A stretch of DNA of 64,000 bases from Brachionus manjavacas. Its lineage: Eukaryota > Rotifera > Eurotatoria > Ploima > Brachionidae. How positions within the stretch are numbered: the first letter of the stretch is position 1; every line of letters begins with the position of its first letter. The notes under the pieces were generated by a model. That model did not search any database and was not told the DNA's origin. It saw only the letters and a program-made list of their open reading frames with translations. The position numbers were made by a program, and so were the translations under genes. Positions 3,223-61,385 of the stretch are shown piece by piece. The stretch spans positions 248,001 to 312,000 of the forward strand of contig JAHQIY010000030.1 of assembly GCA_019054805.1 (NCBI GenBank), written 5' to 3'.

Positions 3223-3228
3223 ATGACC

Positions 3229-29093: not shown

Positions 29094-29507
29094 GTAGGCA
29101 ATAATCAAACTAAATGTGTTGAATTGAGTTTATTCAAATTCAAAAAGGAAAATTCAACAGTTGTCTATTTTTTAAATCCTTACAAGCATCCAAAGATGGA
29201 CAACAACAAGTTAATTCAAGAGTTGATTGCCTTTTTGAAATCAAATTTGCATAGCACAGATTCTTTGGTAATCTTTCGTGATTTCAATATTGATTTTAAT
29301 AGAGAGAACAATTCAAAGTACCTTGATTCACTAAGAGACAATTTGAACTTGATACCAGTTTTTACAAAATGTCTAACTTTCAAGGGTATGTCTCAATTGG
29401 ATTGGTGTCTTACAAACAATTCGAATATATTAAGTCAATTAAAATCACAGCCATATTCAACATGGGTTAGCCATATTCAATATTCACCATTCAATACTTT
29501 GTTTTAA
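29094..29507 (+). pseudogene. EEP-fold fragment (copy 2)
   Basis: Identical in protein sequence to 23451-23864, including the Arg in place of the GDFN Gly. Same context 5.6 kb further right. Confidence 0.6.
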
Positions 29508-38663: not shown

Positions 38664-38960
38664 GCGGCATTGTGAATTTTGGTACAAAAAACAAATACAA
38701 AATATAAAAAATGTCAAAGCTCAGGTTCTGAAGGAGCAAAACATGTTCTGTAAATTGTAGCAACTGAAACGTTTTTTGTACCACCAATATACTGATTCTG
38801 CAAAACTCTGCAATACATCTGCAAAATTCAGAATTTTGTGATTTTTAGTACAAAATCAGAAACAAAATATAAAATACACCATAGATTTATTTTGGACAAG
38901 CAAAAAAATATTCTGTAGAATGTAGCAACTGCTACATCCTCTGTACCACCACTTAATGTA
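38664..38960. repeat. tandem duplication of about 145 bp, diverged
   Basis: Two imperfect copies each run from a TTTTGGTACAAAA/TTTTAGTACAAAA start, through TTCTGTAAATTGTAGCAACT or TTCTGTAGAATGTAGCAACT, to TTTGTACCACCA/CTGTACCACCA. A related CTGCAAAACTCTGCAATACA-like line occurs near 58862. Noncoding. Confidence 0.55.
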
Positions 38961-39138
38961 AAAATAATAATATAAAATTCAAAATCTTACAAAGCATTTA
39001 AACCACTGTTTAGGCAACCCAAAGTATAGAATTTTAAACTTTTGTTATGTTTAAAATGTGTTTTAAAAATATTTTTTTTATTTGAAAAAATATTGAAAAC
39101 AAATATTTTGAAAATTGCTGCGCACTGTAATGGTATTT

Positions 39139-39246
39139 TCAAACCAGTTCAAAAAAAAGATAGCCAGGAGTCGAATTCGGGTGACAAAAACTTACATGAA
39201 ACCTACTTACAAATTAATAAAGCGTTTTACCAGACAGGATCCACTT
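39139..39246 (-). tRNA. tRNA-like / tRNA-derived SINE head with Pol III terminator (degenerate)
   Basis: The minus strand from 39246 reads GGATCCTGTCTGGTAAAACG (A-box-like TGGTAAAACG), about 45 nt of spacer, then ACCCGAATTCGACTCCTGGC (B-box-like TTCGACTCC), and within a few bases a run of eight T, a Pol III terminator. The arms do not pair well enough for a canonical cloverleaf. A decayed tRNA gene or the head of a tRNA-derived SINE is therefore more likely than a working tRNA. No anticodon is assigned. Confidence 0.3.
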
Positions 39247-39249
39247 AAA

Positions 39250-40440
39250 AATAAACCGAATAGTAAATAGAAAGTGTCTTTTATTATTAAAAAAAATCAA
39301 TGAAAAAAATAATCAAGTTATCTTTTATAGATTTTTTTATTTAATTATTGATTTTATAAAATAAAATTGAAATTTTTAATTGTTTTTATAGCAATATTAA
39401 AGGGTTCCTCTGTAGGACGACAAGTCAAACCAGCTTTGTCACACCAAAGACTATGAAAAAGTAGCCTAGTCCTAAAATTCAGCGCTTAAAAAAAAATAGA
39501 CCCTAATCGAAGTCATCTCGATGATCAAGGGCCTCCAATCGCTCATGTACAGACTGAAATACCTTCACAGAGGCAATCAACTACACTGCTTAACTTGAAC
39601 TGAAAAAATAATAAAAGAAATCGTTTTATGACGAACTCAAAGAGATTTGACTCTTTAAAATATAGCACTAAGCTAACGAATAGCGAATGCAGTGAAAGTG
39701 CTTCGATTAAAGTGTGCATTTTATATAAGAAAATTTTAAAATAAATCCACAACATTTTGATTGTACTAAGGGCTGCTCCAAGTCAAATTTTAATATTTTA
39801 AAAATTTAAACCAATTTTTAAAAAATGAATTTCAATACACGATGCTTGTCAATTATTTGGAGTGAATTAATTTAAAGCTTTTCTATTTGAAAAATATTTT
39901 TTGGTCTCATGCTAATCATATTTAAAAACAAAAATTTAAGTATGGTACAACGAGATCAACATTCTTCAATTCACTATGAATTTAAATATTATATTATCAA
40001 AAATTTTTATTAAATTATAATTTTTAAATTGGAAAAATAAATAAAAAATAAAAATATTCTTAAAAAATTTATTTATTTTGAAATAATTCTTATCATTTTC
40101 TCACGAAAATCTGAAATGAATATTTAAGAAGTAATTAAATAATCCGACATTATGGATCAGCATTCCTAGAATCTCCAGCTTTTTCAATCTCTTCCTAAAA
40201 AAACGAAAATGGTAAATAATATCTTATAACCTTGATGGTTATGCAAATCATTAATTGATCAAAATATTTAACACTTCCTTTTTTTTGAAAGAAAATGAAA
40301 AAGCTTTTGACTGTTTCTAGGAAAAGGAGGTTTCATGCCGAATTATATTAAAAACTTCTTCTATATTCATATCAAATTTTCGTATAAAATGATAAGAAAA
40401 ATTTCAAATTAAAAAATATAAAACAATAAAAATATAAAAA
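39250..40440. other. no gene seen
   Basis: AT-rich DNA between the array flank and the four-gene block. A slightly less AT-rich stretch at 39405-39560 has no open frame I can support. Confidence 0.5.
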
Positions 40441-40441
40441 T

Positions 40442-43400
40442 TTAATCCGAAAAAAACTCTATGCACGATTCAGCCCGACGTGTAATGTATACTCGATTCT
40501 TTCCGGAGGTTTCATAATAAAATCCGCCTCTTTTCCCCTTAAATACAATACTTCCATTTGCTGAACCGTTGCTTAGATAAGTTCCGACAGGATCGTCTTT
40601 GTTTTCGTTTTTTAAAACTAAATCTTTATTTAAACGGGAATAATTCAATTAAAAAAAAATTAAATTAATTATACCATTATTAGTTTTAGCTCTCTTTTCG
40701 GATGATTCTAGATTTAATTTTAAATCTTTAATTGAGGTATTTTTTTCCATAATTTCTTCCTGTAATTGGAACATTGTAAACTTCATCTCAGCTTTTAAAT
40801 GAATATTAATCAAGATAATTAAATAATTAAATTTCCATACTTAATTCATTTTTAAATTTTCATTTAAATATTGCAAATCGTCATAATCCTGCCTGAGTTC
40901 AGTTAGTTGTCTCTGATTCTGATTTTCGTATCCAATTTTTTTATTTGATGGATTAAATGGACAATAACGGCCACTATTTTTTTAATTTAAATATGTTAAA
41001 TTTTAATTATTATTAAAAAATAACCTTATATGCCTCTTTTTCTTAGGATCAATATGACCTTTTCCCCCACAAAACTTAAATGGACAATTCGTTTTTTTCA
41101 TTCCGTAGAAACGTATTGAACTATCGCCTTCAAAATTTAGATCGATGAATTGTTTTTTAAAACAGGTTAATTCTTTCGATCTAGAATAAATAAAAATATA
41201 ATAATAAGAAGTATTAAAAATATAAATACTTTTTATCTAAAAATGAGTTTTCAATACCAAGAACAACTATTTTTTTCTCCATCATCTTTCTAAAAAAAAA
41301 ATTATTAAGGAAAAAGATTTCAAAAAAATTACATTTCATCCTGAAGTTGAATCTTCACAATTTCCTGCCTACTTAGTTCAAGTTTATTTTCTTCAGCAAT
41401 ACCGTTAAGTTTTTCGTTCAGACTTTGCCTTTAGAATTAAAGAAAATTTTTTTGATTATTAAATATTTTTTTATTCTTACACTTCATCCTCTAGATGAGC
41501 TTTAGCTGCGTCACACTTGCTGAGTTTTTCGGCCATATTTTCTCTTCAAAAAATTTAAATTAATATTTTAATTAATTTTTCTGTATCACTTACTTTTCTT
41601 CAGTAGATTTTTCTTTTTCATCGGAAAAAGCATTTAAATTTCTCTTTAGGCTTTTACTTATATTATAAGAAAAAATTCTATATAAATTCATTTGTATCAT
41701 TTTTAAATCTTACAGTTCAACTTCTAGATCTTTTTTCTTTACTTCATTGCTGTTGAATATTTTAGACAATTTTTCACTTTAAAAAAAATATATTAAATTA
41801 ATTTAAGACAAATTTTTCGATCGTACTTTTGCGCATTTAATTTTTATATTTTCTTCAGCAATACCGTTAAGTTTTTCGTTCAGACTTTGCCTTTAGAATT
41901 AAAGAAAATTTTTTTGATTATTAAATATTTTTTTATTCTTACACTTCATCCTCTAGATGAGCTTTAGCTGCGTCACACTTGCTGAGTTTTTCGGCCATAT
42001 TTTCTCTTCAAAAAATTTAAATTAATATTTTAATTAATTTTTCTGTATCACTTACTTTTCTTCAGTAGATTTTTCTTTTTCTTCGGAAAAAGCATTTAAA
42101 TTTCTCTTTAGGCTTTTACTTATATTATAAGAAAAAATTCTATATAAATTCATTTGTATCATTTTTAAATCTTACAGTTCAACTTCTAGATCTTTTTTCT
42201 TTACTTCATTGCTGTTGAATATTTTAGACAATTTTTCACTTTAAAAAAAATATATTAATTTAATTTTAGACAAATTTTTCGATCGTACTTTTGCGCATTT
42301 AATTTTTTATTTTCTTCAGCAATACCGTTAAGTTTTTCGTTCAGACTTTGCCTTTAGAATTAAAGAAAATTTTTTTGATTATTAAATATTTTTTTATTCT
42401 TACACTTCATCCTCTAGATGAGCTTTAGCTGCGTCACACTTGCTGAGTTTTTCGGCCATATTTTCTCTTCAAAAAATTTAAATTAATATTTTAATTAATT
42501 TTTCTGTATCACTTACTTTTCTTCAGTAGATTTTTCTTTTTCTTCGGAAAAAGCATTTAACTTTTCTTTTAGATCTTTTCTTTAGTATTTTAAGATATAA
42601 ATTTTTCTGATTATTATACATTATTTTAATCTTACTCTTCAGCCTCAAAATGGGCTTTTAATGCCACGAGTTTTGCAGTCACATTTTCTCTTTTAAATAT
42701 TTGTTAAATTTATTTTATTTTTACATAATCTGATATCCTTTTTTTAAAATTACTTTGCTTCTTTTAGCTCTTGGCCTTCTTCCCGTAAATTTTCAGTCGT
42801 CTCCATTAATCTTTTTCTTAAATAAAATATTTTCATTTGAGCCAAAAACAGTTCATTTTTTCTTTACATTTGAAATTCTTGAGAATGGTTATTCTTTGAA
42901 AGCTGGTCTAATATTTCTGATTTTTCAGAGTCAGTTTGAGAATATTTTCTGATTATTTCAAATTTCCTTTCAATAATATTAAATTTGTTTCTTTTTATTT
43001 GACTTAAAATTACTCGTTTAATATTTTGCTTTTCTGTATTAATTCCAGTTCTACTATTTCTTTTTCTTCTTTTTCTTTTTGAAATCTCATTTCGCTTGAT
43101 TCAATTTTTAATTTTAAGCTTTCTTCTAACTTTAAATGTTCTTGAATCAGTCTTTGATTTTCTTCTTTTAGTTTTTCATTTTCTTCTCTTTGCTTGAAAA
43201 AATTTTAGGAAAAAAAACATTTTTAAATAAATTCAAAAATCTAAACCTTATTAAAGAACGGACAGTTTTTGATTACAAAGTGTGATGATAAACCTCTTTT
43301 TACGTTTCCTTTGCCATTACATTCTTTAATTAGAGGACATGACCTGGTTGTATTTTCTTTAAGTAATTCATTTTCTTGAATCAATTTCTCAACATCTCTT

Positions 43401-44336
43401 TTTAAAGACTGTATTGTGTAATCTTGCCTTTCTCTTTCTTTTTTCTCCATCTCATTTCTAAAAATATACATTTTAATTTATTTCCAATATCAAAGTCAGT
43501 CGATTTTGTGATTCGTACTTTTGCCTTAAGTTTTCTTTTAATGCTTCATTTTCATTTTGAAGGATTTCCTCATTTGAAATACATTCAGTATAAAATTGTT
43601 TCCATTGATCAGTCTTTGATCTTAATGCAGCCTTTTAAGAAGATTAGATTTAATCATCGATGAAAAAAAAATTAAATACTCGTAAGTTATCAATCTCTGA
43701 TTCCATATCACCATTATCATGATTCATAAGTGAAACATTTTGATTTTCGGAAAAGCTTCCGTTCAAAAGAGGAGTTGACGATTGAAAAATTACGTCGATC
43801 TAAATAAATTTAAAATATTGTTTATCAAATACTCAAAAATACTCACAGTATTTTGATCATCCCGCTTTTCAGCGACATTTTCAAAAAACATTTTGAAAAA
43901 AATTGGAAATTCCATTTGAAATATTCTCAACTAGCTCAAATGATTTATTCTTAAGATAAAATTGTTTAAAATTTTAAAAACATAAATTTTAAAAAACAAA
44001 CCACAAATGTCTCTATGTAAGAATCATCTAAACTATTTGAATGTATTTCTTCGCCAAAATCAAAGAATTGCTTGCATTCTTTTGGACTCTCCTTCACTTT
44101 GATACATTTTTTGGTCCATCATCAATTTTCACTAGTTGAGATTCGACCAGATCGCTTTTTAGTGAGGATGAAATAACATATGTTTTAACAATAATTTTAT
44201 CCTTTGATTCATTATTGAATTCATCTTTGGAATAATTCTCATTGTCTGATCCATCCTTAATTTCAACGTATGGATCACATTTTGAATTTGATCTTTTTTT
44301 TAGGTTTTCGGACATTTTTGAATTTAAAATATTCAA
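40442..44336 (-). CDS. multi-exon coiled-coil protein with two C2HC fingers and a PBCV-basic-adaptor-like C-terminus
   Basis: The order below follows the minus strand. The N-terminus is disordered and acidic (SENLKKRSNSKCDPYVEIKD), and a frame slip at a T-run (44107-44112) separates it from KECKQFFDFGEEIHSN. Short exons with GT-AG introns follow, including MFFENVAEKRDDQNT and ALRSKTDQWKQFYTEC. Next is a MYT1-like C2HC finger, CPLIKECNGKGNVKR..H...NCPF (43271-43350), then strong coiled coils (QREENEKLKEENQRLIQEHL) and a run of about 66-nt mini-exons duplicated in tandem (41389-42560). A second C2HC finger, CPFKFCGGKGHIDPKKKRH...YCPF, is split by an intron (about 40950-41090). The last exon has VFKGKRGGFYYETSGKNRVY, like the PBCV basic adaptor motif of large DNA viruses and some mobile elements. 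I infer a DNA-binding accessory protein of the neighbouring transposase. Exact exon list uncertain. Confidence 0.6.
41389..42560 (-). repeat. 461-bp tandem duplication of four mini-exons (2.5 copies)
   Basis: Repeat starts (TTCTTCAGCAATACCG on the plus strand) lie at 41389, 41851 and 42312. Each full unit holds four phase-2 exons of about 64-70 nt, e.g. ENMAEKLSKCDAAKAHLEDE, NLNAFSDEKEKSTEEK, SEKLSKIFNSNEVKKKDLEV and QSLNEKLNGIAEEN, giving about 88 coiled-coil residues. All four splice in the same phase, so copy number can change without breaking the frame. Confidence 0.75.
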
Positions 44337-44645
44337 ATATTGTATAGGTTTTGTCTAAATTACAGTTTTAAATTTTAAATTAATTTTAGAAGATTAAAAA
44401 TTTAATTTTAAGACTTTGTGGATTTAAAAGGCCTAAAATAATTCTAGTTTAACTTTATTAAAATTTTAATTAGCTTATTAAGTGAGCACACTCGCTGGAA
44501 AGCCAAATTATAAACAAATACTTTTAGTAAAATATGGTTAATAATCTTATTACCTTCGTAATTATTTAGTTAAAATTTACAATTTAATTTAACAGATTTA
44601 TTTGTTAAATATAGATTAAAAAAAATTTTTGTCAAATCATTTATT

Positions 44646-47600
44646 TTAAAAACAAATTGGACATAACTGATTTAATTCATAATTTTCAATACATGATTGG
44701 TGAAATTTATGAAAGCAATCACCTTTCACAATATTTTTAAATGTTTTGATTTCTGAACCACATTTGGAACAGAAATTTTCACTAGAATTTTTCTGAAGGT
44801 ACGAATCATTTCAGAACGCAATTTTTGAAGTGAACTATTCAACGTATTGAAAAAGAGCGGTTTTCCCTCTACAAGACATTTTAGAAAGAAGCTCACAAAT
44901 ACCCCACAATTATTAGGATCATTTTGAAGTGAATGATCACATTTTGCTTGTTTCCAATTTCTATTATTCAGTGATTCAACGGTAGAAGCAAATCTTCTTT
45001 AAAAAAATATATACAGATACATTTTAGATGAAAAACTGACTTATACTTACTTCCAGTTTTCAAAAGATTTTTTCTGATTTTCTATTTTTTCTCCTAATGG
45101 ATCAACATAGTAAAATTTACTTCCGTTTAATTCAATAAACATCATTGACCAATGATTTAAGTTTTCATTAATAAAACCGAAAATTACATCAAAATTTTTA
45201 AACTTGAATAATTTTTTTAACAAGAGCTTTTACTTATTAATTAGAAACCTACTTCAAAATAATTTCCAAGTCCAATTTCACTATTTAATTTTCCTTCATT
45301 AAAAATCTGAGTTGAATGAAAACAATCGAGAATTAAAATTTTCTTTTTAGAGTTACTAACAACGCATTTTGCAAAAGCCATTAATTCCTTAATTTAGAAA
45401 TAAATAAATTTATCTAAATAATTTTCGAAATATTTACATTATCAGTAAGCCATTTATTTGTTAAAATATCGTCAATTGCCTTTTTTCGGATTAGAAAATT
45501 TGCAATTTTAAAATAGATAAAATTTCCGAAATTATTTTCATGTTTTTTGTCAATATCCATTGGAACTTCTGTATCGATTATTTCAATTTCATTTGCTGAA
45601 TTTTCCAATTTTTTGACCCTTCACTATAAATGTCAACAAAAAAGTTTTCCTTTGGTATATCATTCTCATTTTTTTGCTTGTCAATATTGAAAACAACATT
45701 ATGGTAACCAACACAATTTTTTGCCGGTTTCTTAAATTTCCACATTTCTCTATGGTCTGAATTTTCTCTCTTTCGAAGTGTGCCGAGCCTGATATTCGCT
45801 ATGTCTTCATAGAATTCTTTATACTTATGATTAATATAGAAATACAAAGGCGTAGAAATTTCACTTAGGAATAGTAAACGACAAGATCGAACACGCTTAT
45901 TTATATTTAAGACACTATTTTTCAAATGCTTAAACCAACTCTCAACGTTATTATTTGAAAAACGAGTTTTGCCATGAAATTCGCTATTAATCATTAAACC
46001 TGTCCATAAAGGCGCCAAATGAAGCTTCTTTTTTATTATTTCAAAAAGTCTAGGTGAATAAAATATGTTCTTTAGCATCAAGACATTGTTTTCTTTTATA
46101 TTATCTATAATTTTCTGATTTACTCTTAAAAGATCGAGAAAAAATTTGGCAAAAGGTGATTCCTGCAATAAATTTTGATCATTATTTTCGAAAAAGAAAA
46201 TTTGTTTCTTGATATCATTTTCCATCTTATTCTTATCATAGCATATGTTATTTAGCCATTTTGCATTCCTAGTGGATAAAAAGAATTCTAGCTTTTGGAT
46301 TTTTTGGGTTAAAATTTCATTTTCGAATTTTGTCATGAAAATAATTTGAATGCATTCAAAAATTTGGCAAAGTTCCTCGATTGATGTGCTATTCTGAAGT
46401 AAGCTAAAGCTACATATAAAAGTTTTTTTTACATGACCATTTGATTGTAAGCTTCCACTACCAACAATTTTTTCGGTTTCATCAATAACATTTTTTAGCA
46501 AATGAGTCGAACAAATATAGACACATGTTTTTATTCGTAAAGAGGCCCACATGTTTTTTTTTACTATGAGTTCGTATGCAAGCTCTAAATAATCCATGAT
46601 TTCTAGATTATTTAAAGCCCTCAAAGATGCATTAATGTTTGCCCATGAAAAGTCGGTAATGAAAAATTTCGGGTATCGAAAAAAGAATATTTATGAAATC
46701 TTTCGATAATTTTTTTTAAAAAACAGTAAATTGTTATGGTGTCATTTGAACTTGATAAAAAATCGGCGATAGGGATTAAGTTTTTAAAAGTCTGATCATG
46801 ACAAACAATAGAATATAATAAAATTTCTTGTTGATCCTTTAGCTTTAGCATTAATTTACCAGTTGCATCAAAAAACCAAACTGGGTTGTTTTCTTGAATA
46901 ACACCCCACATTTTTGCTTGTTTTTCTGATACCAAAAGCGCGCCAAATGGATTTGAAACAACTTCTTGTATATATCCTTCAATTAAGGACTTTGATGTTT
47001 TTGGTACCAAAAGATCAAATACTAGTTTTGTAGCGTCAGAATCAATTCGAAGATCATTATTTAGCTGAAATCTGTGTCTGAATTGACTTTTGAGTTTTCT
47101 TAGAGACGTATAACTAATTTCACGTTTTTTAAAATCATCATCTTCTAAAAAATCGTTTTCGGTTTGAAAATTGATAAGACCTTTAGAATAAATATCTTTT
47201 TGAATGGCTTTTCGTTCAATTCTCGATAGATTATTTGATAAAATTGCAAAATTTACTTTTTCTTTACAAAAATTTGTCTCTGAAATTAATATCAGTTTGC
47301 AATTGGAATTTTCAAATGGTTCTGTCTTTATAAACGATTTAAACTCTTTGCTACAACGAACACACTTCAAAGTTCCATTCCAAAAATTTTTTGAATAATT
47401 ATTACATCTAACAGAACAAAAATAATTGTTTTTGAGCTTGAATAAGCAATTTATTCCATCTGATTGAATTTTCTTTGATATTAATGCATTTGCTGCTGAT
47501 AAAAATTTTTCCTTCTTGCTGAAGTAATTGTTTCTTCTAAATTTTTCCATTCATCATATGAAAAAACAAATTCATGATGCTGAGGATTTTTTTCTGAATT

Positions 47601-47863
47601 AGTTGAGAGTTTTTCATTGCAACGTAGCTCTTCTAATATGTATTTTTTAATCCCATTATCGTTTCGTCTCCATTTTACATATAAATTAAGGGCTTCCAAT
47701 TTTAAATATTCTTTTGATTTTTCAAAGTATTTTTCACAAATTTCTAGGAAATGTGAACTAGACGTTCTGTGTCCTCCTTCAAATCAGTCAAGCCTCTATC
47801 TTTCATATAATTGACAATTATATTTTTTAGTTTTTCTTTGTTATCGAATTTTGCTGTATGCAT
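44646..47863 (-). CDS. MULE-type DDE transposase fused to Ulp1-type cysteine protease and RING finger
   Basis: ATG at 47863. Order: an N-terminal FEGGHRTSS/KWRRNDNGIKKYIL region; a Cys-rich zinc-binding segment (CSVRC...CVRC, near 47340-47415); then the Mutator-like core with WFFDATGKL (first Asp), FFITDFSWANIN (second Asp, about 46645) and NNNVESWFKHLKN (Glu at 45941-45943). After two short introns comes a C48/Ulp1-like protease with NHWSMMF (His), YYVDPLG (Asp) and QNDPNNCGVFVSF (Gln, Cys). Last is a RING finger CSKCG...CFHKFHQSCI...LCPIC ending at 44646. Introns near 45200-45250 and 45000-45053 are 50-54 bp. At least four one-base homopolymer shortfalls break the frame. Ulp1-MULE fusions are known in plants (Kaonashi elements); the RING addition is unusual. 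Either recently dead or intact with sequence errors. Confidence 0.8.
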
Positions 47864-47929
47864 TTTAATAAATACTAAAATTTAAATTTTTTTTAATTTT
47901 CAGATGTAAAGAGTTTGCTTTAAAGAAAA

Positions 47930-47968
47930 TAATTTCTTTAAAAATTCTTTAAAAAAATGAACAAGATT
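47930..47968. repeat. 39-bp direct repeat, left of the JAMM-like gene
   Basis: TAATTTCTTTAAAAATTCTT and following bases are identical to 48834-48872. It lies just upstream of the transposase ATG on the minus strand; the other copy lies upstream of the JAMM-like gene, so both may be promoter parts. Confidence 0.7.
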
Positions 47969-48062
47969 TTGAAATATTTTATTTAAAATGAATCATCAAT
48001 ATAGTTTGTTCAGGGTTGGGTATAAACAAAATTTTTATTGAATCAATTTATTAAAGTTATTA

Positions 48063-48644
48063 TTAGTTAAAAAAAATGCTTAATTTTAAAAAATTTATGT
48101 TAGAATTTTCGAAATCTGCTAGATAGTTTTCGACTATATTCTCCACAGAAATACTTTTGCAATTATGAGAAGACACTGAGATATTCGACATTACATCACA
48201 AATATCGTTTATATCTTCTTCTATTTCTTTTTTTTTTATTTCATCCAATTGTTGATTGGAAAAAATAAATGTTTGAATTATAAAGTTGCCTTGTTCAGAA
48301 AAGATAATTTCCTGAGTGTCAGCTTCATAATGAAAGGCTGCTTTCAGTAAGTTTTCAATATCGATTGGCGATGGAAATGCGTCAAAATGAATTTTAATTT
48401 CATTTTCGTCAAACTGTCCTTGATAGTTATTTTTCCTGATATTCGACGAAATTGGATGCGTATGCCATGAAATTAGTTCATCGGATATAGGAAATATTGG
48501 AATTGATTCCAGTAACAGTGTTTCTGGACTTCCGTTCTAAATATTGGTAATATTTCCTGTATCTAATTCGAAAACACCACCCATTTCATAGGATAAATGC
48601 ATTGTTTGTGGATCATTAATTATATTAGATATATGTATGGACAT
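48063..48644 (-). CDS. JAMM/MPN-type metalloprotease-like protein (one in-frame stop)
   Basis: A 193-codon frame from ATG at 48644. It has the pieces of a JAMM zinc isopeptidase: Glu20 in YEMGGVF, His61 and His63 in ISWHTHP, and Ser92/Asp95 in PSPIDIENLL. The gap between HxHP and SxxD (about 28 residues) is longer than the usual 10 or so, which lowers certainty. JAMM enzymes remove ubiquitin-like modifiers. A single TAG at 48537-48539 (codon 36) interrupts the frame; it could be a nonsense mutation, a sequence error or the end of an unseen intron. The acidic C-terminus (KKKEIEEDINDICDVM) is unassigned. It sits 200 bp upstream of the transposase gene, same strand, with a 39-bp direct repeat on each side. 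Confidence 0.55.
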
Positions 48645-48833
48645 TTTCGGTTTAAATTTCTAATTTTCTAAAAATAAAGTAGAATAATTAATAATTTAAT
48701 ATATTAAATTCAAAAACAACAAAATTTATTTCGTCTCTAAGCGGGAACTCTAATTAAAAAGAAGTAAAATAAAATTATAAAAGAAGCCTATTTATGAGCT
48801 TTTTGAATTTTTTATTGAAAATTTTAAAGTTAA

Positions 48834-48872
48834 TAATTTCTTTAAAAATTCTTTAAAAAAATGAACAAGATT
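48834..48872. repeat. 39-bp direct repeat, right of the JAMM-like gene
   Basis: Identical to 47930-47968, about 190 bp upstream of the JAMM-like ATG on the minus strand. Confidence 0.7.
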
Positions 48873-49313
48873 CAATTTAAAATATTTATTGATTATTTTA
48901 TTTTTTTTTAATTATATATTGGTAATAAAAATTATAATAGAAAAATAAACCATTTTTTTTTCTTCCGGTCTGCCTGATCTATTTTTTATAACTCACAACG
49001 CTTTCATTTTAGAGTTGATTCAAAAATTGATTAATTTAGTTTAAAATTTTTAAAATTTCATTTTAAAAATTTTTGAATAAAAAAAAATACCTAATTTCTT
49101 AGTTTTTTTGTTGTAAATGGAATTTTTTCATTTTTATCAACACATTAATGGTTGCTTTAAGCATTAAAGATTAAAAAATTCTTTTATAATGAAAATTGAG
49201 GCAATTGAAGACTTATAAGTTAAAAGTGAAAGCGAAAGAAGAAAATTCTAGAAGATGACGATTCATTATCAATATTTTATTTTAAAATAAAACTAAAAAT
49301 AAAATCTATTAAT
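48873..49313. other. intergenic, no gene seen
   Basis: AT-rich spacer between the chromodomain gene's stop and the JAMM-like gene. Confidence 0.5.
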
Positions 49314-50669
49314 TTAAAATTTGTATTTTCGCCTTTTTTTGAATTCATTCAAAGTTCCTTTCTGACTTTGCATGTCAGAAATATGGACAATTGCACTATC
49401 TTCTTTTGCTGGTCTCTCAGGTCTTTCATTTTGAAAGCCAGGATTTATCATTGAAAAATTCTCCCAAGTACTATTGAAAAAGAATTATAAAACTAAAAAC
49501 AAAATTTTTTTTTAGTTAAAATAAATAATACGGTTTGAAATCGATTCCGCCGAGTTTGGACCACTTAATTTTTGCCTGACGCTTATTTTTTCGGACTCTC
49601 GTGTCCAAAATTTCATCAAAGTCGAAATAAATATCGTCTGGGTGGACATATTCGGGAATTTCCTAAAAATATTTAAATTTCATTAATATTTAAAATTTGT
49701 TAAAGCATTACTTTTATTTCAGATGTCGTTTCTTTTGAAATTTCTTCTGACGAGGCAATAATCTCGGGTTGCTTATCTTTATCATCTTTGCCTTGAAATT
49801 CACTTAGTTTTGATATCGTGATACTCGATTTGACATTTTTATTTGCAATTCTAATCGATTTCATTTCATCTTCCGTTTTATCATTTTGTTTTATGGTGAA
49901 GATGCCTTGAAAGATATCAAAGCCGACAATATTTCTTGAATATATTGAATCATCCATTTGAAAGCCTGGAAGTTCAATATTATTGACTTAATTAATAAAT
50001 ATAAAAAATTACAAAAAATTCTTCTAATTATATGTAAAACTTACTAGTGCAATATTCGTTCATTTCATCAATGTTCTCAATGCCAAGCTCATTTCCCATC
50101 AGCTTTTTGCATTTAAGGAAACAGTTTTTAATTCGTTCCTTATCCAGATCACGATTTGACATCTATTAAAAAATAATTTAAAGATAAATAAAATTAGTAG
50201 ATAAAAAATACTTTTTCGAATCACAAACAGTACTTAACGTTCGATTTTCCGAATACAAAGATTCACTCTTAACAAAAAATAATTAAAAATTACCAAAAGA
50301 AAAAGTAATTTTAAATTTACCTCTAAGTCAAGTTCATGACTTTTGAATTTGAGGACATGTGAAACCGCGTCGTCATATTCTCTTATTTTAAAAGTTTCTT
50401 TACCATCGTACTCCACCCAAAAATTGACCAAGCCTTTTTCTTTCGATAAGTTGGCTATTTCTTCGTCACTTTTGTCAAATTTTAAACCTTTTTCTAATTA
50501 AATTAAAAATTAATAAAATTAAAATAATGAAAAATAGGATACCTTTCATTAATTCTTTGAATTTTCGAGCGTTTAATGCGCCAACCCCATGAATTTTGTT
50601 GAATTCATGAAAAGCTTTTCGGAGCAGGGCTCTGATATCCCTTTTAATGAGTTTCGCTGGGTTAACCAT
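49314..50669 (-). CDS. chromodomain protein, seven exons, reads intact
   Basis: ATG at 50669. The exons join in frame through short GT-AG introns. Exon 1 reads NPAKLIKRDIRALLRKAFHE and ends ELMK. Exon 2 has NFWVEYDGKETFKIREYDDA, then a small exon SESLYSENRTLSTVCDSKK. The next exon begins MSNRDLDKERIKNCFLKCKK, followed by an exon with NIVGFDIFQGIFTIKQNDK and a low-complexity acidic part. The last two exons carry a chromodomain: EILDTRVRKNKRQAKIKW, then TWENFSMI across an intron, corresponding to the ILDxR...YLVKWxG...TWEP pattern. Stop at 49314. Chromodomains bind methylated histone tails and occur in chromovirus integrases and host chromatin proteins. No integrase is attached here. I infer a chromatin-targeting partner of the adjacent transposase, or a host gene next to it. 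Confidence 0.65.
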
Positions 50670-51149
50670 ATTAATTTTTGTATATTATCTAAAGTAAAAA
50701 AATCAAAACGATTTATAAAAGAGGTGGTAAAAATAAATTTAAAACAGTTTGTTATTACTGTAAATTGAAATAAAAAAAAAATTTATTTAAAATCATTTAT
50801 TAACAAGTTATTCAAAAATATAAATTAAAAAGTTTATTTTTGTATTCACGGTGAAAAGCAGAATTTGAGTGATAATTGACACAGCATAATTCTATGCATT
50901 CTATGATATTTTTCATAAATTTTCTTCGATAATTAGCAACTGATTTAATACAAAAAAAAGATTTGATATTGTGATTATTTATTTATCAATCTAAATTTAA
51001 TTTAAAATAATTAAAAATTAAAAAAAAAAAACAAAAAATTAAAGATTTAACAAAAACAATTAATAAAAAAAATCAAAAAAATCATCTGTTTTGATAACCA
51101 TTCGTGTTGAAAAACAAATTGTTTGCTTGCGTTCATTGCATCATATCAT
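50670..51149. other. no gene seen
   Basis: AT-rich DNA upstream of the chromodomain gene; its promoter would lie here, but no element is recognisable. Confidence 0.4.
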
Positions 51150-51771
51150 TTTTTCGTATGTTGATTTGAAAAAACCTAGGACAGACACCAACCGAGTTAA
51201 CTTCGAGCACAAGACTTCCTCCTATCAACTCTTTAGTAAGTAATTTCTCAATAGACCGAGTTATTGTGAAACAAGCGGTAAAAGAAATTGATAAAAATCG
51301 AATCCCTCTAGACATTTACCCGATTAAGTGTCCATCCGAATTAAAAAAATTTTAAAATAAATGAAGAATTAAAGATTTTTTACGACCGGTTAAAAACTCT
51401 AAAGATCATATTGTTCTCGAAACCTTGCATGATCTCAGTTCGCCTTCCAGATTCGCCTACTCGATCAAAAGTCAGCTAGAACATGAAGTTCTCGACTTAG
51501 GCGCCTCCTTGGACTCCCGAGCCACATGCATACAATGAGAGATGAGTCGTTAAGTCAACCTCAAGGTAATGATCACTTCGGGTCGTTAAGCCTCCATGTC
51601 ATTGTCGGAAATCTTACTGGGTGGGCAGCCCTAATTTATTTATTAATGTGCAAGAATATTTACGTACGGTCCCACGCGTACGGCCCGAAAATGTCCTACC
51701 TACAGAGCTATAGAATTCATTCTCCCTCTAATGGCTATGATATTTATCTGCTATTTATAAAAAAGGATTAA
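51150..51771 (+). pseudogene. unrecognised decayed coding stretch, less AT-rich
   Basis: One plus-strand frame reads PTELTSSTRLPPINSLVSNF, SIDRVIVKQAVKEIDKNRIP and then, after two stops, DHIVLETLHDLSSPSRFAYS and LEHEVLDLGASLDSRATC. Composition is protein-like and G+C is higher than around it. A separate 81-codon frame follows (51526-51771). I do not recognise the family; a retroelement polyprotein remnant is a guess. Sequence between here and the satellite at 52140 shows nothing. Confidence 0.3.
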
Positions 51772-52139
51772 GCTTAAGATTAAATTAAGCTATCTTTTAA
51801 TTTCTTACTTCTTAAATTTTATATTATTAAAAAATGAATTTTATTATTAATTTTATAAAATTTAAAGAAGTCAGATAATTAGAGACTTTAAAAGAAAAAT
51901 ATCAGCCATCAGTCTAGAGGTTAAGAAAACGAATTTCATAAGAAATACATCCAACAATTTATACTACCTGAAAAAGCAGTTCCATCGAAGTTGAAATTTG
52001 ATTTGAATGTCGAAAAATGGCAATGACAAAACTAAATTAAAAAAAATATTTTAAAATGTAAACAAATATTAAAAATAAAAAAATAATTTTTTTTTATAAA
52101 TTTTACATAAAAATTCTGACATTTTTTAAGTTTTATTTA

Positions 52140-54660
52140 CTTAAATTTGCTCAAGACTGAAATCAAGCATGTGAATAAAAAATGGAAAATCATTTTCACT
52201 TATGTCAAATAAGTTATGAAATCGTTTTTACCATGTCTAATTCAAAAGACTGATTTTTGTTTCCTTTTAGTTACTTAATTAAGCTCAAGACTGAAATCAG
52301 GCTTTTGAATTAGATATGGTAAACCAATTTCACTTCTCTCATACAAGTTATGAAATTGTTTTTCCAAATCTTACTCAAAGGCCTGATTTTAATTTTGGGT
52401 TTTTATGCTAAAATTTGCCCAAAACTGAAATCAGGCTTTTGAAACAAATATGGAAAATTAATTTCACTTCTCTCATACAAGTCATGAAATTATTCTCCCA
52501 TTTCCTAATCAAAAGCCTGATTTTTGTTTCCTTTTAATTACTTAATTAAGCTCAAGACTGAAATCAGGCTTTTGAATTAGATATGGAAAACCAATTTCAC
52601 TTCTCTCATACAAGTTATGAAATTGTTTTTCCAAATCTTACTCAAAGGCCTGATTTTAATTTTGGGTTTTTATGCTAAAATTTGTCCAAAACTGAAATCA
52701 GGCTTTTGAATAAAATATGGAAAACCAATTTCACTTCTCTCATACAAGTTATGAAATTGTTTTTCCAAATATTACTCAAAGCCCTGATTTTAATTTTGGG
52801 TTTTTATGCTAAAATTTGCCCAAAACCGAAATCAGGCTTTTGAATAAAATTTGGAAAACCAAATTTCACTTCTCTCATACAAGTTATGAAATTGTTTTTA
52901 CCATGTCTTATTCAAAAGCCTGTTTTTTTTGTGCTTTTAGGTACTTGAATGAACTTTAGATAAAAATCAGGCTTTTGAAACATATATGGAAAACCAATTT
53001 CACTTCTCTCATACAAGTTATGAAATTGTTCTCCCATTTCCTAATCAAAAGCCTGATTTTTGTTTCCTTTTAGTTACTTAATTAAGCTCAAGACTGAAAT
53101 CAGGCTTTTGAATTAGATATGGAAAACCAATTTCACTTCTCTCATACAAGTTATGAAATTGTTTTTACAAATATTACTCAAAGCCCTGATTTTAATTTTG
53201 AGTTTTTATGCTAAAATTTTGCCCAAAACTGAAATCAGGCTTTTGAAACAAATATGGAAAATTAATTTCACTTCTCTCATACAAGTTATGAAATTATTCT
53301 CCCATTTCCTAATCAAAAGCCTGATTTTTGTTTCCTTTTAATTACTTAATTAAGCCCAAGACTGAAATCAGGCTTTTGAAACAAATATGGAAAATTAATT
53401 TCACTTCTCTCATGCAAGTTATGAAATTATTCTCCCATTTCCTAATCAAAAGCCTGATTTTTGTTTCCTTTTAATTACTTAATTAAGCTCAAGACTGAAA
53501 TCAGGCTTTTGAATAAGATATAGAAAACCAATTTTACTTCTCTAATAGAAGTTATGAAATTGTTTTTCCATGTCTTAATCAAAAGCCTGATTTTTTTGTG
53601 CTTTTAGGTACTTGAATGAACTTTAGATGAAAATCAGGCTTTTGAAACATATATGGAAAAACAATTTCACTTCTCTCATACAAGTTATGAAATTGTTCTC
53701 CAATTTCCTAATCAAAAGCCTGATTTTTGTTTCCTTTTAGTTACTTAATTAAGCTCAAGACTGAAATCAGGCTTTTGAATTAGATATGGTAAACCAATTT
53801 CACTTCTCTTATACAAGTTATGAAATTGTTTTTACAAATATTACTCAAAGCCCTGATTTTAATTTTGAGTTTTTATGCTAAAATTTTGCCCAAAACTGAA
53901 ATCAGGCTTTTGAAACAAATATGGAAAATTAATTTCACTTCTCTCATACAAGTCATGTAATTATTCTCCCATTTCCTAATCAAAAGCCTGATTTTTGTTT
54001 CCTTTTAATTACTTAATTAAGCTCAAGACTGAAATCAGGCTTTTGAATTAGATATGGTAAACCAATTTCACTTCTCTCATACAAGTTATGAAATTGTTTT
54101 TCCAAATCTTACTCAAAGGCCTGATTTTAATTTTGGGTTTTTATGCTATAATTTGTCCAAAACCGAAATCAGGCTTTTGAATAAAATATGGAAAACCAAA
54201 TTTCAGTTCTCTCATACAAGTTATGAAATTGTTTTTTCCATGTCTTATTCAAAAGCCTGATTTTTTTGTGCTTTTAGGTTCTTGAATGAACTTTAGATGA
54301 AAATCAGGCTTTTGAAACATATATGGAAAACCAATTTCACTTCTCTCATACAAGTTATGAAATTGTTCTCCCATTTCCTAATCAAAAGCCTGATTTTTGT
54401 TTCCTTTTAATTACTTAATTAAGCTCAAGACTGAAATCAGGCTTTTGAATTAGATATGGTAAACCAATTTCACTTCTCTTATACAAGTTATGAAATTGTT
54501 TTTCCAAATATTACTCAAAGGCCTGATTTTAATTTTTGGGTTTTTATGCTAAAATTTGCCCAAAACTGAAATCAGGCTTTTGAATAAAATATGGAAAACC
54601 AATTTCACTTCTCTCATACAAGTTATGAAATTGTTTTTACCATGTCTTATTCAAAAGCCT
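52140..54660. repeat. 134-bp satellite, about 19 units, each able to form a hairpin
   Basis: Units recur every 130-135 bases (AATCAGGCTTTTGAA at 52297, 52431, about 52565, 52698 and so on to about 54568). Each holds ATCAGGCTTTTGA and its complement TCAAAAGCCTGAT about 75 bases later, with CAATTTCA/TGAAATTG nested inside, so most of a unit can fold on itself around a CTTCTCTCATACAAG loop. Three linker types alternate (TTACTTAATTAAGCTCAAGA; TTTTATGCTAAAATTTGCCC; TACTTGAATGAACTTTAGAT). No coding. Confidence 0.85.
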
Positions 54661-55415
54661 TATTAAATTGTTTTACCTTTATATTCTTCTCGTATATCGT
54701 CCCATTGTTGAATATTAACAAATAAACTGCTCATCAACAAATGCTGATTACTCTCTAAATCTAAAACCTGGCTTCAGAGCAACAACTCGAAGAATTCTAT
54801 GACCAATTTGTATAGTTGTGAATTTTTACACAAAAATACCAATACAAAATTTGAATAGTTAACAAAAATATTTATTTCGGACTACAAATTTTTCTTTAAG
54901 TTTAAAACGTGAAACAAACAATCTTGTATTTCGTTCAAAACTAAATAATTAATTTTTAAAACTTAATTACTGAAACTAAATATTTTATTCTCAATCAAAT
55001 AAGTATATCATTATGATGGATTACGTTAAAATCAGACAGCTCCATTAGTCTTCTATATTATTTATTATTATGTTATTATTATTAATTAAAAATTGCATTA
55101 TTTTTAAATGAAAATATTTTAACCTTTAATTTAACTCAAGTATTCAAAGCAAGCCAGTCTTTTGGATTTAAAATTTAGGATGGGATTCTATCAAAAACAT
55201 TAAGAAAATAATACAAAAAAATTTTCTGATTAATTATACTAGCAATAAAAAATTTCGGAAAAATTTTTTTTAATTATCCTAACTTAACAAAGCCAAAGCT
55301 AAACTAAAAATAAATTCTGCTCAAAAAAATTTAAAATAAACCTGTGTTAGTTTATAAATAAACCTGTTACTTGGTATTACTACTAAAATAAAGAGTAAAA
55401 AAAATGTCTACTTAC
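54661..55415. other. no gene seen
   Basis: AT-rich DNA. From 55405 to 55415 it includes the donor-side intron sequence of the Set1 remnant. Confidence 0.5.
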
Positions 55416-56001
55416 ATCACAGGAATGATTGATAAACCGGGACAAAAATTGCCGCATTTAGTGGCGTCAACAATCGTGTCTTGATCAATGCGAAACATGC
55501 AGCTACTGCCAATGCCCTGGTCGTTATAGCACTTTTCCCTATGATCGGCGACCGATTACCGTATGGTCTCGCCCACATACTCGATGACAAACTCCTAGGG
55601 CGCAATTGTCTCCAAGGCGAACAATCCCCAGTCGTGGATGTCCGACTTGCAGAATTTCAGCGACTTTTTCCTCAGCTTCAGCTGGCTATACTTGAAAAAG
55701 TCGTGTACTTCATTGCAGGCCATTAGTTTGCGTTGGAGAGAGCGGGCCTCGCGGGCCGACGACATAGACGACACCTCCTGGCCCAAAGCATCAATGTTAG
55801 ACCCGCTGGACGAGTTGTGCGCCAGCGACGACGAGCCCACGTTCATCTGTAGTGACAAGCTCAAATAGCTCTGCTTGAATTGCTCCCTGAACTGTATTTT
55901 TAGGACTTTTTGTCACTGGCTCACAGCCGCTCTTTTCTGCATCGACTTTTTTTTTTGGACTTTTTGGTGCGCTTTTTCACCATCTTTGCATCGTCATCAG
56001 C
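55416..56001 (-). pseudogene. Set1/COMPASS histone H3K4 methyltransferase, SET-domain exon, inactivated
   Basis: Set1/SETD1 enzymes methylate histone H3 Lys4 within COMPASS in the nucleus. After an acceptor (TTCTTAAG, near 56002) the exon has a Lys-rich tract, then [41 protein letters not shown], and [20 protein letters not shown], followed by CGNF: the n-SET/SET pattern of this family. Damage: TAG at 55595-55597 (an acidic residue in relatives), TAA at 55556-55558 (Gln in relatives), a frame change in the Lys-rich tract and another just before the RFINHSCD block, which survives in a shifted frame up to a GTAAGT donor at 55415. The post-SET exon is not seen. G+C is far above the surroundings. 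Confidence 0.85.
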
Positions 56002-57819
56002 CTTAAGAACAAAAAAAGTAGGCAAACTTGGCTTTGGAGATTGGAAAAATTAATTCTTAATTATTCCCAATTTAATTTTTTAGCATCAAATTAGACCCCA
56101 ATTTATAAATTTCACCCTAAATGTGATGTCCAAAAAGCAAACCTTGGTAAAAAGTTGGGATCAAGTTTTTTCATGAAACTATGGAGCGTAACCTGAAACA
56201 TTTAAATTTGCGGCGATTCGGTCTTGAGCAAAAACTGTAGAAAAGTATATTTGGTTATATTAAATCCCAGTTTTATTTAAATTATTGATAATTATCTAAA
56301 AAATACTTAAACATTTTTTAAAAAATTTTGCTAAACTCAAACAAAAGCTAAAGAAAAAATAATTTTTATATTCAGAAGTGTAGTTATAATATTGACAAAA
56401 ACAGTACTAAATGTTTTTTTGATTTTAAGGCTAAAACTTTTTTTTAAATTTTAAATTTTTTAAAAATTTATTGAATATTTTGCTTTGCTTTAATTTTTTG
56501 CTCCAACCTTCACCGCCGCTCCAAAAAACCCTTATTAAATTATTATATTTTTATGTAAATTCAATGCATTATAAATTAATAGATAATTTTTACAGTTTTT
56601 TTGGCCCTTTTTATATTTACTGAAATTTACTTTTTTTCTTTAGCAATTTTAATTAACGTAAATTTACGTAAAATCACGAAAATTTCGAAAAAGTACGTAA
56701 AATTTTATAAAAACAGTTTATCATAGCAGTACAGTAATTTCTTATAAGATAAAAACAGGAATGTTAATAATATATTTTTTTTCTAAAAAAAATTTTGATT
56801 GAAAGCCGGACAATTAAGATTAGATTCTTATTTTTCTTTTTGAATGAATAGAAAAAAAAAATTAGTAGACTTTTAAACCTTCGAAAAAAAACGTTAGCTA
56901 TAGAAGCACCAACAAAAAATTTTTCCTCGTTTTAAATATCTAAATTCTCATATATTTTGAACAGCTATTTTTTTTTTAATTTTCAATTTATTTTTTATCA
57001 GCTTTAAAATTATTATTATTTTCGTAAAACAAAAATTTTTCAAATATTATAAATTTAAACTTGAATTTAATAGCTGACTTAATTTAATCTAAGTATTCAA
57101 TGCTGAAATATCAAGTTTATAATTTATGTATTTATTATTAATTTCTTTAAATTGACTGTGTTAAATTTAAATTTTTTAAATATTTTGACACTTCTAGTAA
57201 CTAGACATAAGAAAATATTAAAAAAAAAAATTCTAAGCTAATCATCTATTAAATAATAAGGGTATTTTAGGCTGTTTGTAATATGATAATTCTAAGCGAG
57301 TTTAATACAAAGTGATTGAACTACTATTCGAGTTAAATACTATAATTTTTTGTTAATATTTTATTTAAATTAAAAAAGTTGTTAAAATAAACAAAAAATA
57401 AAAAAAGTAGAAAAAATTGATCAATAGATCAAACATCAAAATTGTGACTTAAGTAACGTTACAATAAATCTAATATACATGTCAATGTTTTCAAAAAGAC
57501 AATTAATTATTTAAAATAGCTTTTGAATGACATCATATCATATGATATCATTCAATTTCTTCTAAACTCTGAAAATTTAAAAGATGCATATTTAATTTGC
57601 ATATTTGATTTGGAAATAAACATTTAGTATTAGTTTCTTACATAAAAATTTAGGACTAAATTCAAAGTATTAAATTGGTTTAGTACTAAATTACTTAGAA
57701 TCGGATTTTAAACAATGTTAATTAAATTTTTTAATAAAAAATTTGTTATTATTGATTAATATCATTGATCAAAAAATTGCAAAATTGAAGTTTAACTAAA
57801 ACTTTAAAAATTATTAAAT
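56002..57819. other. 1.8 kb AT-rich DNA without a gene
   Basis: No supported frame, only low-complexity AT. It may be intron sequence of the former Set1 gene. Confidence 0.55.
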
Positions 57820-58830
57820 TGTAAAATAATAATAAAATTTAAAATTAAAGAATTGTCACCTTATAAAATTGAATGAGGAAAAATGTTAAACTATAATTTT
57901 AAAATTACGGAATTTTTAAATTTTGGATTTGTAAAATTTTAAAAGAGAATTCAATAAGAGATTTTATAATTTAATAAGAAATTCAAACAAAATTTTAAAA
58001 TTACGGAATTGTTTAATTACAAAATTAAACGAGAAGAAAAATAAAAGTAAAATAGTTTAATTTTGGAATTGTAAAATTTAATAAGAGAATTTAATAAGAA
58101 ATTAAACAAAATTAAAATTACAGAATTATAACCTTATAAAATTGAAATTGAGGAAGAATGTTAACCAATATAGTTTATTTTAGCTGTAAATTTTTTTAAG
58201 GGGGTATTAAATAAAATTTTTAAAATCGTTAACTTTTAAAATTCGATAACAAAGAAAAACTAAAAAATATAATTGTCAATTATTTAGTCAACAACTATTT
58301 TTTCTCCATCATCTTTCTAAAAAAAAAATTATTAAGGAAAAAAGATTTCAAAAAAAAATTACATTTCATCCTGAAGTTGAATCTTCACAATTTCCTGCCT
58401 ACTTAGTTCAAGTTTATTTTCTTCAGCAATACAATTACTTCAGCAAGAAGGAAAAAATTTTTATCAGCAGCAAATGCATTAATATCAAAGAAAATTCAAT
58501 CAGATGGAATAAATTGCTTATTCAAGCTCAAAAACAATTATTTTTGTTCTGTTAGATGTAAAAATTATTCAAAAAAAGTTAAACTAAAATAGTTAAATTT
58601 TTTATATGTAAATTTTTATAGGGGGTAAATTAAATAAAATTTTGAAATTACAAAATTGAATGAGGAAAATGTTTAACTAGAATTGTAAAATTTTGGAACT
58701 GGTAATTTAATGAGAAATTAAACAAAATTTAAAATAACGGAATTGTTAACTTATAAAATTGAATGAAAAGAAAATTATAACTAAAAAATATATATTTTGA
58801 AATTGTAAAATTTTAAAATGCTTAATGGTT
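57820..58830. repeat. degenerate AT-rich satellite, interrupted at 58292-58585
   Basis: Lines such as AAAATTACGGAATTGT, CTTATAAAATTGAATGAGG, TTTTGGAATTGTAAAATTT and AAATTTTTTTAAGGGGGTA recur irregularly every 100-200 bases on both sides of the chimeric fragment, which appears inserted into this tract. Confidence 0.55.
58292..58585. mobile_element. chimeric fragment of the four-gene block
   Basis: The left half (58292-58432) matches 41265-41408 of the coiled-coil gene in the same orientation. The right half (58432-58575) matches the complement of about 47405-47560 of the transposase gene. Parts that lie 6 kb apart in the parent are thus joined in inverted relation. In the transposase half the frame is intact (SARRKKFLSAANALISKKIQ), with one more A than the parent at 47506-47510. 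Confidence 0.8.
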
Positions 58831-59370
58831 AAGTAACTTTGCTTAATCCAAAAAATATTTCTGCAAAAACTCTGCAATGTATTTGCACTCTTGATTGGAA
58901 TACCTTTTTAAGGCGTAGACTTATTTTACTGTACTAAGCAAATTTGCTTATAATTAAGCATTTTACAGAACTAAATTATCTCTTTTAGTTAAATTTCTAT
59001 AATATTTATATTGTTTACAATTACAGAATTGTGCACTTTTAAAATGTAATAAGGGGAAGATTGAACAAATATTTTTATATTAAAGCATGAAAAATTTCAC
59101 TGATTAAATTCTTTAAATCGATAGCTAAAATTGAAAATTAAGGAAGCATTGGACACATATCAGAATCGAATTATATTATTTATTTTTATTATTATTAAAG
59201 CCTCATAGACAGAATTTTAAACTAAAAATATTCAAAATTAAAAAAAAAAAAGAAAAGAATAAAGTAAAAAATGAAGATGCACAAATTAAGCCTAATTTTA
59301 ATGTCAGAAAACCGTTTTATTTGATAAAAAAGGGAACAATTTTTCATCAAAAATAAATAAACAAATAAAA
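58831..59370. other. no gene seen
   Basis: AT-rich, with scattered satellite-like lines and no frame. Confidence 0.5.
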
Positions 59371-59645
59371 AAAAATACCTTGATCATTGCGCTGAATTTA
59401 AACTATGCACTCTTTTTTTCAACCAAATCAACCATGTCTCTTTTGTCCTGGGTTTGCTTAATGACCAAATCAATAATGGAATCAATAGTCGAAATATTCT
59501 CTTCATTTTGATCTGCACTTTGCTCTCACATCTCTTAAAACATTGTAATTCTCTTCCAAATTGGCTTCTTCTTGTTTGACAGTCAAACTATGCCCAATCG
59601 CACACTCAACACTAGTGCGGCGCACACACTCGTTCTAAAAAACAG
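59371..59645 (-). pseudogene. possible Set1 mid-region exon remnant
   Basis: Frames read SLTVKQEEANLEENYNVLRD and, shifted, SADQNEENISTIDSIIDLVI then KQTQDKRDMVDLVEKKSA before a TAG. Position between the SET exon and the repeated arginine/serine section, same strand and raised G+C, suggests they belong to the same dead gene. The sequence itself is not diagnostic. Confidence 0.3.
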
Positions 59646-59713
59646 CGGTGACAATTATTTTGTCTGATTCGGAAAAAGCGTGCGAGGGCTTGTTGTGCGC
59701 TTGAGCTTGAGCT

Positions 59714-61168: not shown

Positions 61169-61385
61169 CTACGAACAAATTTGTTTCTAGCGTTCTTTGT
61201 CTTCTTTGTTTGCCAGACCTTATAATTGTAAAAATATTTAAACATTCTCAATTTGGGATTTTAAAAAAAAATTTTGTTTAAAAAAAACTTGATACTTTTT
61301 TTTAAATTAATTCAAATTTTCAAAATACATTTTATTCCGAATCAAAAATTCATTTAATAATAATTACAATTTGTTTGGTTATTAC

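Follow-up and report, generated by a model that had tools for sequence, protein, structure and literature searches.

Mutator-like elements (MULEs) are recognised by a DDE transposase with a CxxH motif between the second D and the E, and fusions of such a transposase to an Ulp1 protease go by the name Kaonashi in plants. Table 1 of PMC6446971 gives one or two open reading frames (ORFs) per MULE group and an OTU protease on the transposase of MuDR-6_HM. Here we describe an element in a window of 64,000 nucleotides of the Brachionus manjavacas genome (C30:248001–312000; genome of 114 Mb in 61 contigs). It shares with the Ulp1 Mutator-like elements a DDE transposase joined to a predicted Ulp1 protease, and its long terminal inverted repeats (TIRs) and 9-bp target duplications fit the superfamily (PMC6446971). 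Unlike them, it has a predicted RING-H2 domain after Ulp1, and a chromo-like gene, a JAMM-motif gene and a coiled-coil/C2HC/PBCV gene travel along over 19–28.6 kb. Whereas Mutator-like elements usually hold one or two ORFs, this one holds at least four genes and appears to have inserted recently. Rehavkus likewise makes 9-bp duplications and has TIRs of up to 400 bp and a minisatellite near the transposase, and Phantom makes 8–10-bp duplications and has TIRs of up to 613 bp, with minisatellites in aphid Phantom; both live in animal hosts. Compared by description, however, these groups have other zinc fingers (PHD in Rehavkus, FLYWCH or SWIM in Phantom) and one or two ORFs (PMC6446971). Ginger1 transposases also carry a C-terminal OTU or Ulp1, once a PHD, but the transposase resembles Gypsy integrases and lengths are 2.6–7.1 kb (PMC2836005). 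The original prediction for this locus had stated that no animal element with such a gene set was known; no description of an animal MULE with the set was found in the open-access literature searched, although Mutators with Ulp1 had already been reported from hydra and lancelet (PMC2836005).

The four genes are the interior of a large TIR transposon. Comparison of copies places a sharp element end at window position 38,666, where the flanks differ among the window, C13 and C26. A 600-bp query taken from this end gave at least 48 matches in the genome (best 40 of 290 candidates), and a search with the DNA of the gene block found further copies (best 7 of 296 candidates). Copy numbers from the genome searches are lower bounds, as only part of the candidates was scored, including 150 of 394 in the MULE search and 111 of 135 in the transposase search. 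The element end occurs in inverted-repeat pairs on C29, C6, C2, C30, C35, C13 and C26, in two C3 copies (C3a and C3b) and in six short copies. In the flanks of these 15 pairs a perfect 9-bp target duplication is found in nine (C29, C30, C35, C26 and five short copies) and a perfect 8-bp duplication in one (C13). The duplication has one mismatch at the C2 and C3a pairs, is partial and offset at the short copy L069, and is ambiguous and A/T-rich at C3b. Both MULE-type features, target duplications (8–11 bp, mostly 9) and long TIRs (here of about 450 bp), are therefore present in the element. The complete copy C30:109030–128120 measures 19,091 bp, has a 9-bp duplication with GACTTAACT at either side, and its TIRs are 97.6% identical over 449 columns. 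In gene direction it contains a SETD1 fragment, a minisatellite, the chromo-like gene, the JAMM-motif gene, the transposase-Ulp1-RING gene and the coiled-coil gene. Copies measure 19–28.6 kb from TIR to TIR, and all four genes lie within four of the six TIR-bounded copies that hold transposase sequence (C29, C6, C2, C30).

The original prediction had placed four minus-strand genes at 40442..50669 and proposed that one large mobile element carries them. Frames and spliced models bear out the genes and the TIRs, duplications and shared interiors bear out the element; the span was too narrow, as the element runs from 38,666 to about 61,172. Element ends immediately around 44.6–47.9 kb were looked for, and the ends lie outside that interval. 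The window copy is decayed, is truncated near 61,172 and lacks a further segment at 55,901/55,902; window 55902–61172 matches the complete C30 copy at 98%. Position 55,901 was tried as the right element end and rejected, since the complete C30 copy shows that a segment is missing there. The features in the window are as follows.

38666..61172, minus strand: surviving extent of the whole element, lacking the outer 5' TIR (sharp boundary at 38,666, match to the C30 copy)
38666..39116, no strand: 3' TIR of about 451 bp, starting GGCATTGTGAATTTTGGTAC (pairs of inverted matches)
40442..44316, minus strand: coiled-coil gene with two C2HC-type fingers and a C-terminal PBCV-basic-adaptor-like motif (frames, profiles)
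41383..42569, minus strand: 462-bp tandem repeat, 2.6 copies, in the coiled-coil gene (repeat listing)
about 44646..47863, minus strand: predicted transposase (DDE, CxxH)-Ulp1-RING-H2 gene, frame broken at several places (frames, profiles, motif columns)
47919..47979, no strand: direct repeat downstream of the cassette (DNA comparison)
48014..48731, minus strand: 718-bp cassette common to other transposase lineages (DNA comparison)
48063..48644, minus strand: JAMM-motif gene, one in-frame stop in the window copy
48823..48887, no strand: direct repeat upstream of the cassette, 65-bp alignment, 89% (DNA comparison)
49314..50669, minus strand: chromo-like gene, six exons, 319 amino acids, open in the window copy (splicing, PDB matches, selection)
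52131..54664, no strand: minisatellite of 133-bp units within the element (repeat listing, copy comparisons)
55400..61172, minus strand: captured SETD1-type fragment, nSET/SET at the low end and RS-rich at the high end (colinearity with the host gene)

The gene order and spacing of the block recur at many loci, and the four-gene block is therefore no chance neighbourhood. Loci with the same gene order, TIRs and target duplications had been proposed as a check, and all were found. That the neighbours would never accompany other copies of the transposase had been set in advance as an outcome against the original prediction; other copies do carry them. Co-location was counted in a set of one hand-picked match per locus (transposase 72 of 112, JAMM-motif 23 of 27, chromo 25 of 110, coiled-coil 27 of 46, SETD1 11 of 14). 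With both strands counted, so that a neighbour may belong to another element, a transposase locus lies within 16 kb of 21 of the 23 JAMM-motif, 21 of the 25 chromo, 22 of the 27 coiled-coil and 8 of the 11 SETD1 matches. A transposase gene that is mobile by itself, with the JAMM-motif, chromo and coiled-coil genes as nested passengers or chance neighbours, would agree with the absence of the JAMM-motif and chromo genes near many divergent transposases and with the movement of the JAMM-motif gene as a separate cassette. The same TIRs, however, enclose all four genes in C29, C6, C2 and C30, no element end lies around the transposase, and a lineage about 40% identical has the same gene order, so that we regard this explanation as quite improbable.

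That second lineage (C11, C24, C22, C10, C14) has a transposase 37–44% identical to that of the window, with the JAMM-motif gene (91–94%) 1.2–2.7 kb upstream and a PBCV-type coiled-coil gene (40–42%) 5.2–8.5 kb downstream, both on the same strand as the transposase. On C11 (L083) the JAMM-motif gene, transposase, Ulp1-RING, coiled-coil/C2HC and PBCV-like end form a single array, in which Pfam recognises the RING, recognises C48 weakly and does not recognise the PBCV motif. The 15-bp terminus of the described element is also present at the C11 3' end, and it is absent from the C24 3' end. The C34 copy contains transposase, Ulp1-RING and coiled-coil/C2HC sequence, and a JAMM match was not found in it. 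Pieces 85–96% identical to the C11 element lie in the window at 25394–27091, 27912–28529 and 63192–63999, and from this similarity they are read as decayed copies that flank the described element on both sides.

Regarding distribution, contigs ranked 22 or smaller hold 37 of the 72 loci of the family, compared with 18 of 147 other MULE loci (150 MULE matches merged; Fisher p 1.3e-9). On larger contigs its clustering does not exceed that of other MULEs, with nearest-neighbour medians of 189 and 199 kb, respectively. The crowding on small contigs is consistent with copies inserting into repeat-rich chromatin or surviving there; common descent and breaks in the assembly could also account for it.

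In the family alignment of the transposase, the second D and the CxTH motif are invariant and the first D and the E are invariant or nearly so, as in the MULE signature. Peptidase_C48 scores 18.6 bits on the window exon, against a cut-off of 20.7. The exons of the C30 copy match SENP5 (E 0.008), Ulp1 and SENP2 in the PDB, in the range E 0.008–0.15, and the catalytic motifs HWS, VDP and NCG were read in that copy by eye. The C48 similarity together with these His-Asp-Cys motifs suggests a protease of the Ulp1/SENP type. The same exons match RING-H2 chains, of RLIM (best E 1.1e-4) and Arkadia, and zf-rbx1 reaches 30.7 bits against a cut-off of 31.0; the zinc pattern is that of a RING-H2 domain, in a putative ligase. 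In the protein database, five relatives of the window transposase were found among the scored candidates, and 16 of the C34 transposase, three of them named Brachionus calyciflorus (32–36% identity). One B. calyciflorus relative (P0013) is named as an OTU-domain protein, and in another (P0018) chromo-like and PBCV-like stretches were seen by eye ahead of the transposase in the predicted protein. Pfam OTU and Chromo each occur in one of 19 members of the transposase family.

The JAMM-motif protein carries HTHP and SPID motifs, and H61, H63, S92 and D95 are invariant in six aligned rows. Its gene lies in the 718-bp block, which has the same edges in C11, C14, C32, C14b, C10 and C22 and is 92.5–95% identical between lineages. 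On C11 an extra 78-bp piece lies after the cassette, whereas the window has this piece before it. The JAMM-motif gene of the window family (three copies) differs from those of C10, C14 and C32 by a synonymous divergence (dS) of 0.07–0.11, with a ratio of nonsynonymous divergence (dN) to dS of 0.34–0.52 from few changes; for the transposase of the window and C11, dS is 1.8 and dN 0.56, so that its amino-acid sequence has been conserved while synonymous sites approached saturation. Since the cassette is 92.5–95% identical while the transposases of the lineages are near synonymous saturation, it was exchanged recently between element lineages. The C4 and C3 copies were considered as proof that the ancestor lacked the cassette and were rejected: the C3b deletion spans the cassette site, and C4 has no window match across the adjacent start of the transposase.

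The chromo label is probable. Among PDB chains, the C-terminal segment of the chromo-like protein has four matches at E≤10, and all four are chromodomains (E 0.13–0.8); Pfam Chromo gave no match on the whole 319-amino-acid protein, so that the chromodomain of the original prediction is retained on the PDB matches and not on the Pfam profile. In exon 5, compared between the window family and the C9 element, changes are found at 21.2 of 23.2 synonymous sites and at 19.8 of 102.8 nonsynonymous sites. Because synonymous change is near saturation and nonsynonymous change far lower, the chromo protein was kept by purifying selection while the lineages diverged. This bears on the explanation in which the transposon is real and large and its accessory proteins are useless to it, having been captured and then decaying slowly as the cargo of Pack-TIRs does. 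Such an explanation clearly holds for the SETD1 piece, and it agrees with the broken JAMM-motif and transposase frames of several copies. The selection on chromo exon 5 argues against it, as do the persistence of Ulp1-RING and the coiled-coil gene in the divergent lineage and the dN/dS of the JAMM-motif gene between lineages, from few changes; we hold it to be unlikely.

Taken as a whole, we consider it likely that the locus is the coding interior of a giant Mutator-like TIR transposon, recently inserted, whose accessory proteins serve the element. A number of results weigh against this. Among the TIR pairs, that of C6 has no matching duplication in its flanks. C3a holds chromo and coiled-coil matches, with the transposase only as a fragment and the JAMM-motif gene without a match, and C3b holds chromo and transposase without the JAMM-motif gene, with a deletion across that place. 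At many divergent transposase loci an accessory match was not found within 16 kb, so the accessory modules are not universal. Pfam MULE gave no match on the window or C34 proteins and matched three of 19 family members (best E 0.033), and a family profile run against three Pfam-MULE proteins of the same genome gave no significant match. We therefore name the family Mutator-like without placing it in a MULE group; the MULE label draws on motifs, on TIR and duplication anatomy and on weak PDB matches. Of the predicted MULE DDE-Ulp1-RING fusion, the DDE/CxxH signature and the Ulp1 and RING-H2 matches stand, and a significant Pfam MULE match does not. Between the window and C17 transposases dN (0.028) and dS (0.044) are close to each other, as expected for decaying copies.

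The JAMM-like assignment itself was not upheld. JAMM/MPN proteins have HxH and SxxD at a short canonical spacing, plus an upstream Glu. In the JAMM-motif protein 28 residues separate H63 from S92, which is not the canonical spacing, and the Glu at position 20 is lost in the C49 row. The protein matched no Pfam family and no JAMM in the PDB (its one match, 4mkm, is not a JAMM), none of 65 candidates in the protein database was related, and a single-sequence structure model was of no use (predicted local distance difference test score, pLDDT, 35.6). JAMM identity thus failed every test made, and what is seen is a motif resemblance with unusual spacing.

The coiled-coil gene was found as predicted, with its C2HC and PBCV matches all under the Pfam cut-offs: zf-C2HC matches twice (E 2.8e-4 and 0.039), and PBCV_basic_adap matches at the C-terminus with E 6.7e-4 (20.2 bits against a cut-off of 20.4). 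This C-terminus is what would recommend an integrated virus-like element, either a Polinton/Maverick or a giant-virus remnant. Polintons/Mavericks carry polymerase B, integrase and capsid genes and make a 6-bp duplication. The 9-bp duplications here are unlike those of a virus-like element, and no such genes occur in the frame list of the complete C30 copy, no profile search having been aimed at them. A polymerase-sized frame was not found in that copy, the longest open frame listed being the transposase, at 450 amino acids, and a single search of viral contigs, with the C34 transposase as query, yielded no relative. A viral origin is accordingly very hard to credit.

The SETD1 piece, missed by the original prediction, is about 5.5 kb long, truncated at both ends and includes introns. 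Positions 540–6701 of the C30 stretch are colinear with the host SETD1 gene on C12 (L082 2767–8265); the main pieces are 86–96% identical in DNA and the introns are partly unalignable. The piece starts within an exon and stops past the exon containing NHSC. A second copy of the capture (L093, C49:97000–106999) has an open SET exon and outer breakpoints identical to those of the C30 copy, and the shared breakpoints point to a single capture event. The fragments in the window, C6 and C35 have a stop in common; as the start and end of the gene are also missing, a working methyltransferase was rejected. In the window copy, 55902–61260 includes about three tandem repeats of a 523-bp part of the fragment.

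A host gene fragment with introns between TIRs is a feature shared with Pack-MULEs and Pack-TIRs (PMC8277862, PMC6431247), and captures of host genes by such elements are known from animals (PMC8277862). In contrast to Pack-MULEs, the SETD1 piece sits in a copy family that carries its own transposase, and the element is longer than 7 kb, the size up to which the first plant Pack-MULEs extended (PMC6431247). Table 1 of PMC6446971 records SET domains in 14 Phytophthora MULEs; these also have SET sequence within a MULE, but here it is a truncated copy of a host SETD1-type gene and not an element gene.

SETD1 sequence occurs at no fewer than 10 loci besides the host gene on C12, which could suggest host segmental duplication near SETD1 with no transposon involved. 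Some copies did arise by duplication: window 38641–38665 and the C2 copy (L049, C2:9449580–9449700) have an identical 25-bp left flank, and because of this common flank the two are probably one insertion that was later duplicated. For the TIR-bounded copies, however, segmental duplication is contradicted by the perfect target duplications that border TIRs at unrelated sites, and no transposase match in the co-location set lies near the host SETD1 locus. We give this explanation next to no weight.

SUMO has roles in transposon silencing. In the mechanism that we propose, the transposase would cut and paste after recognising the GGCATTGTGAATTTT termini, and the fused Ulp1 and RING domains would remove or add SUMO or ubiquitin on proteins that belong to the transposition complex or act in host silencing. 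The JAMM-motif protein, if it is an enzyme, might likewise act on the SUMO or ubiquitin of those proteins. The chromo protein would tether the machinery to methylated histone, which could shield copies from SUMO-dependent silencing or steer insertion into element-rich chromatin, and the coiled-coil/C2HC protein may be a DNA-binding scaffold. The SETD1 fragment would be passive cargo, copied in during gap repair or replication. From the predicted domains we infer SUMO/ubiquitin editing and chromatin reading by element proteins, with indirect support from purifying selection on the chromo exons and the crowding on small contigs. A stronger version, which we put forward only tentatively and regard as rather doubtful, is that of an animal transposon whose transposition machinery includes a kit of this kind. 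A chromodomain protein would guide the Ulp1-RING transposase to silenced chromatin rich in elements; there the transposase would counter SUMO-dependent silencing and insert preferentially, and element lineages would trade accessory enzymes in the form of cassettes. Should the companion proteins do what their domains point to, the element would be a natural case of a transposon equipped with its own means of countering silencing and choosing sites, and the question why transposases keep gaining Ulp1 and OTU proteases would become directly testable. Cassette exchange and SETD1 capture show how genes are acquired by elements of this type within the genome of an animal.

Six TIR-only copies of 965–991 bp (L065–L070) have the same terminus, five of them with perfect 9-bp duplications, and are candidate miniature inverted-repeat transposable elements moved by the element family. 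The described element is inserted at the edge of a tandem array at window 30308–38664 (425-bp unit, 19.7 copies). Each unit can be read as an exon coding for coiled coil, with a match of about 82–87% to the coiled-coil gene in the C34 element. An 81-amino-acid frame occurs six times in window 141–18272 (starts 141, 9432, 11582, 13731, 15882 and 18030), with four gaps of about 2.15 kb, and looks mariner/Tc1-like by eye. A near-identical frame of 137 amino acids, endonuclease-like by eye, is found at 23451–23861, 29094–29504 and 62192–62602.

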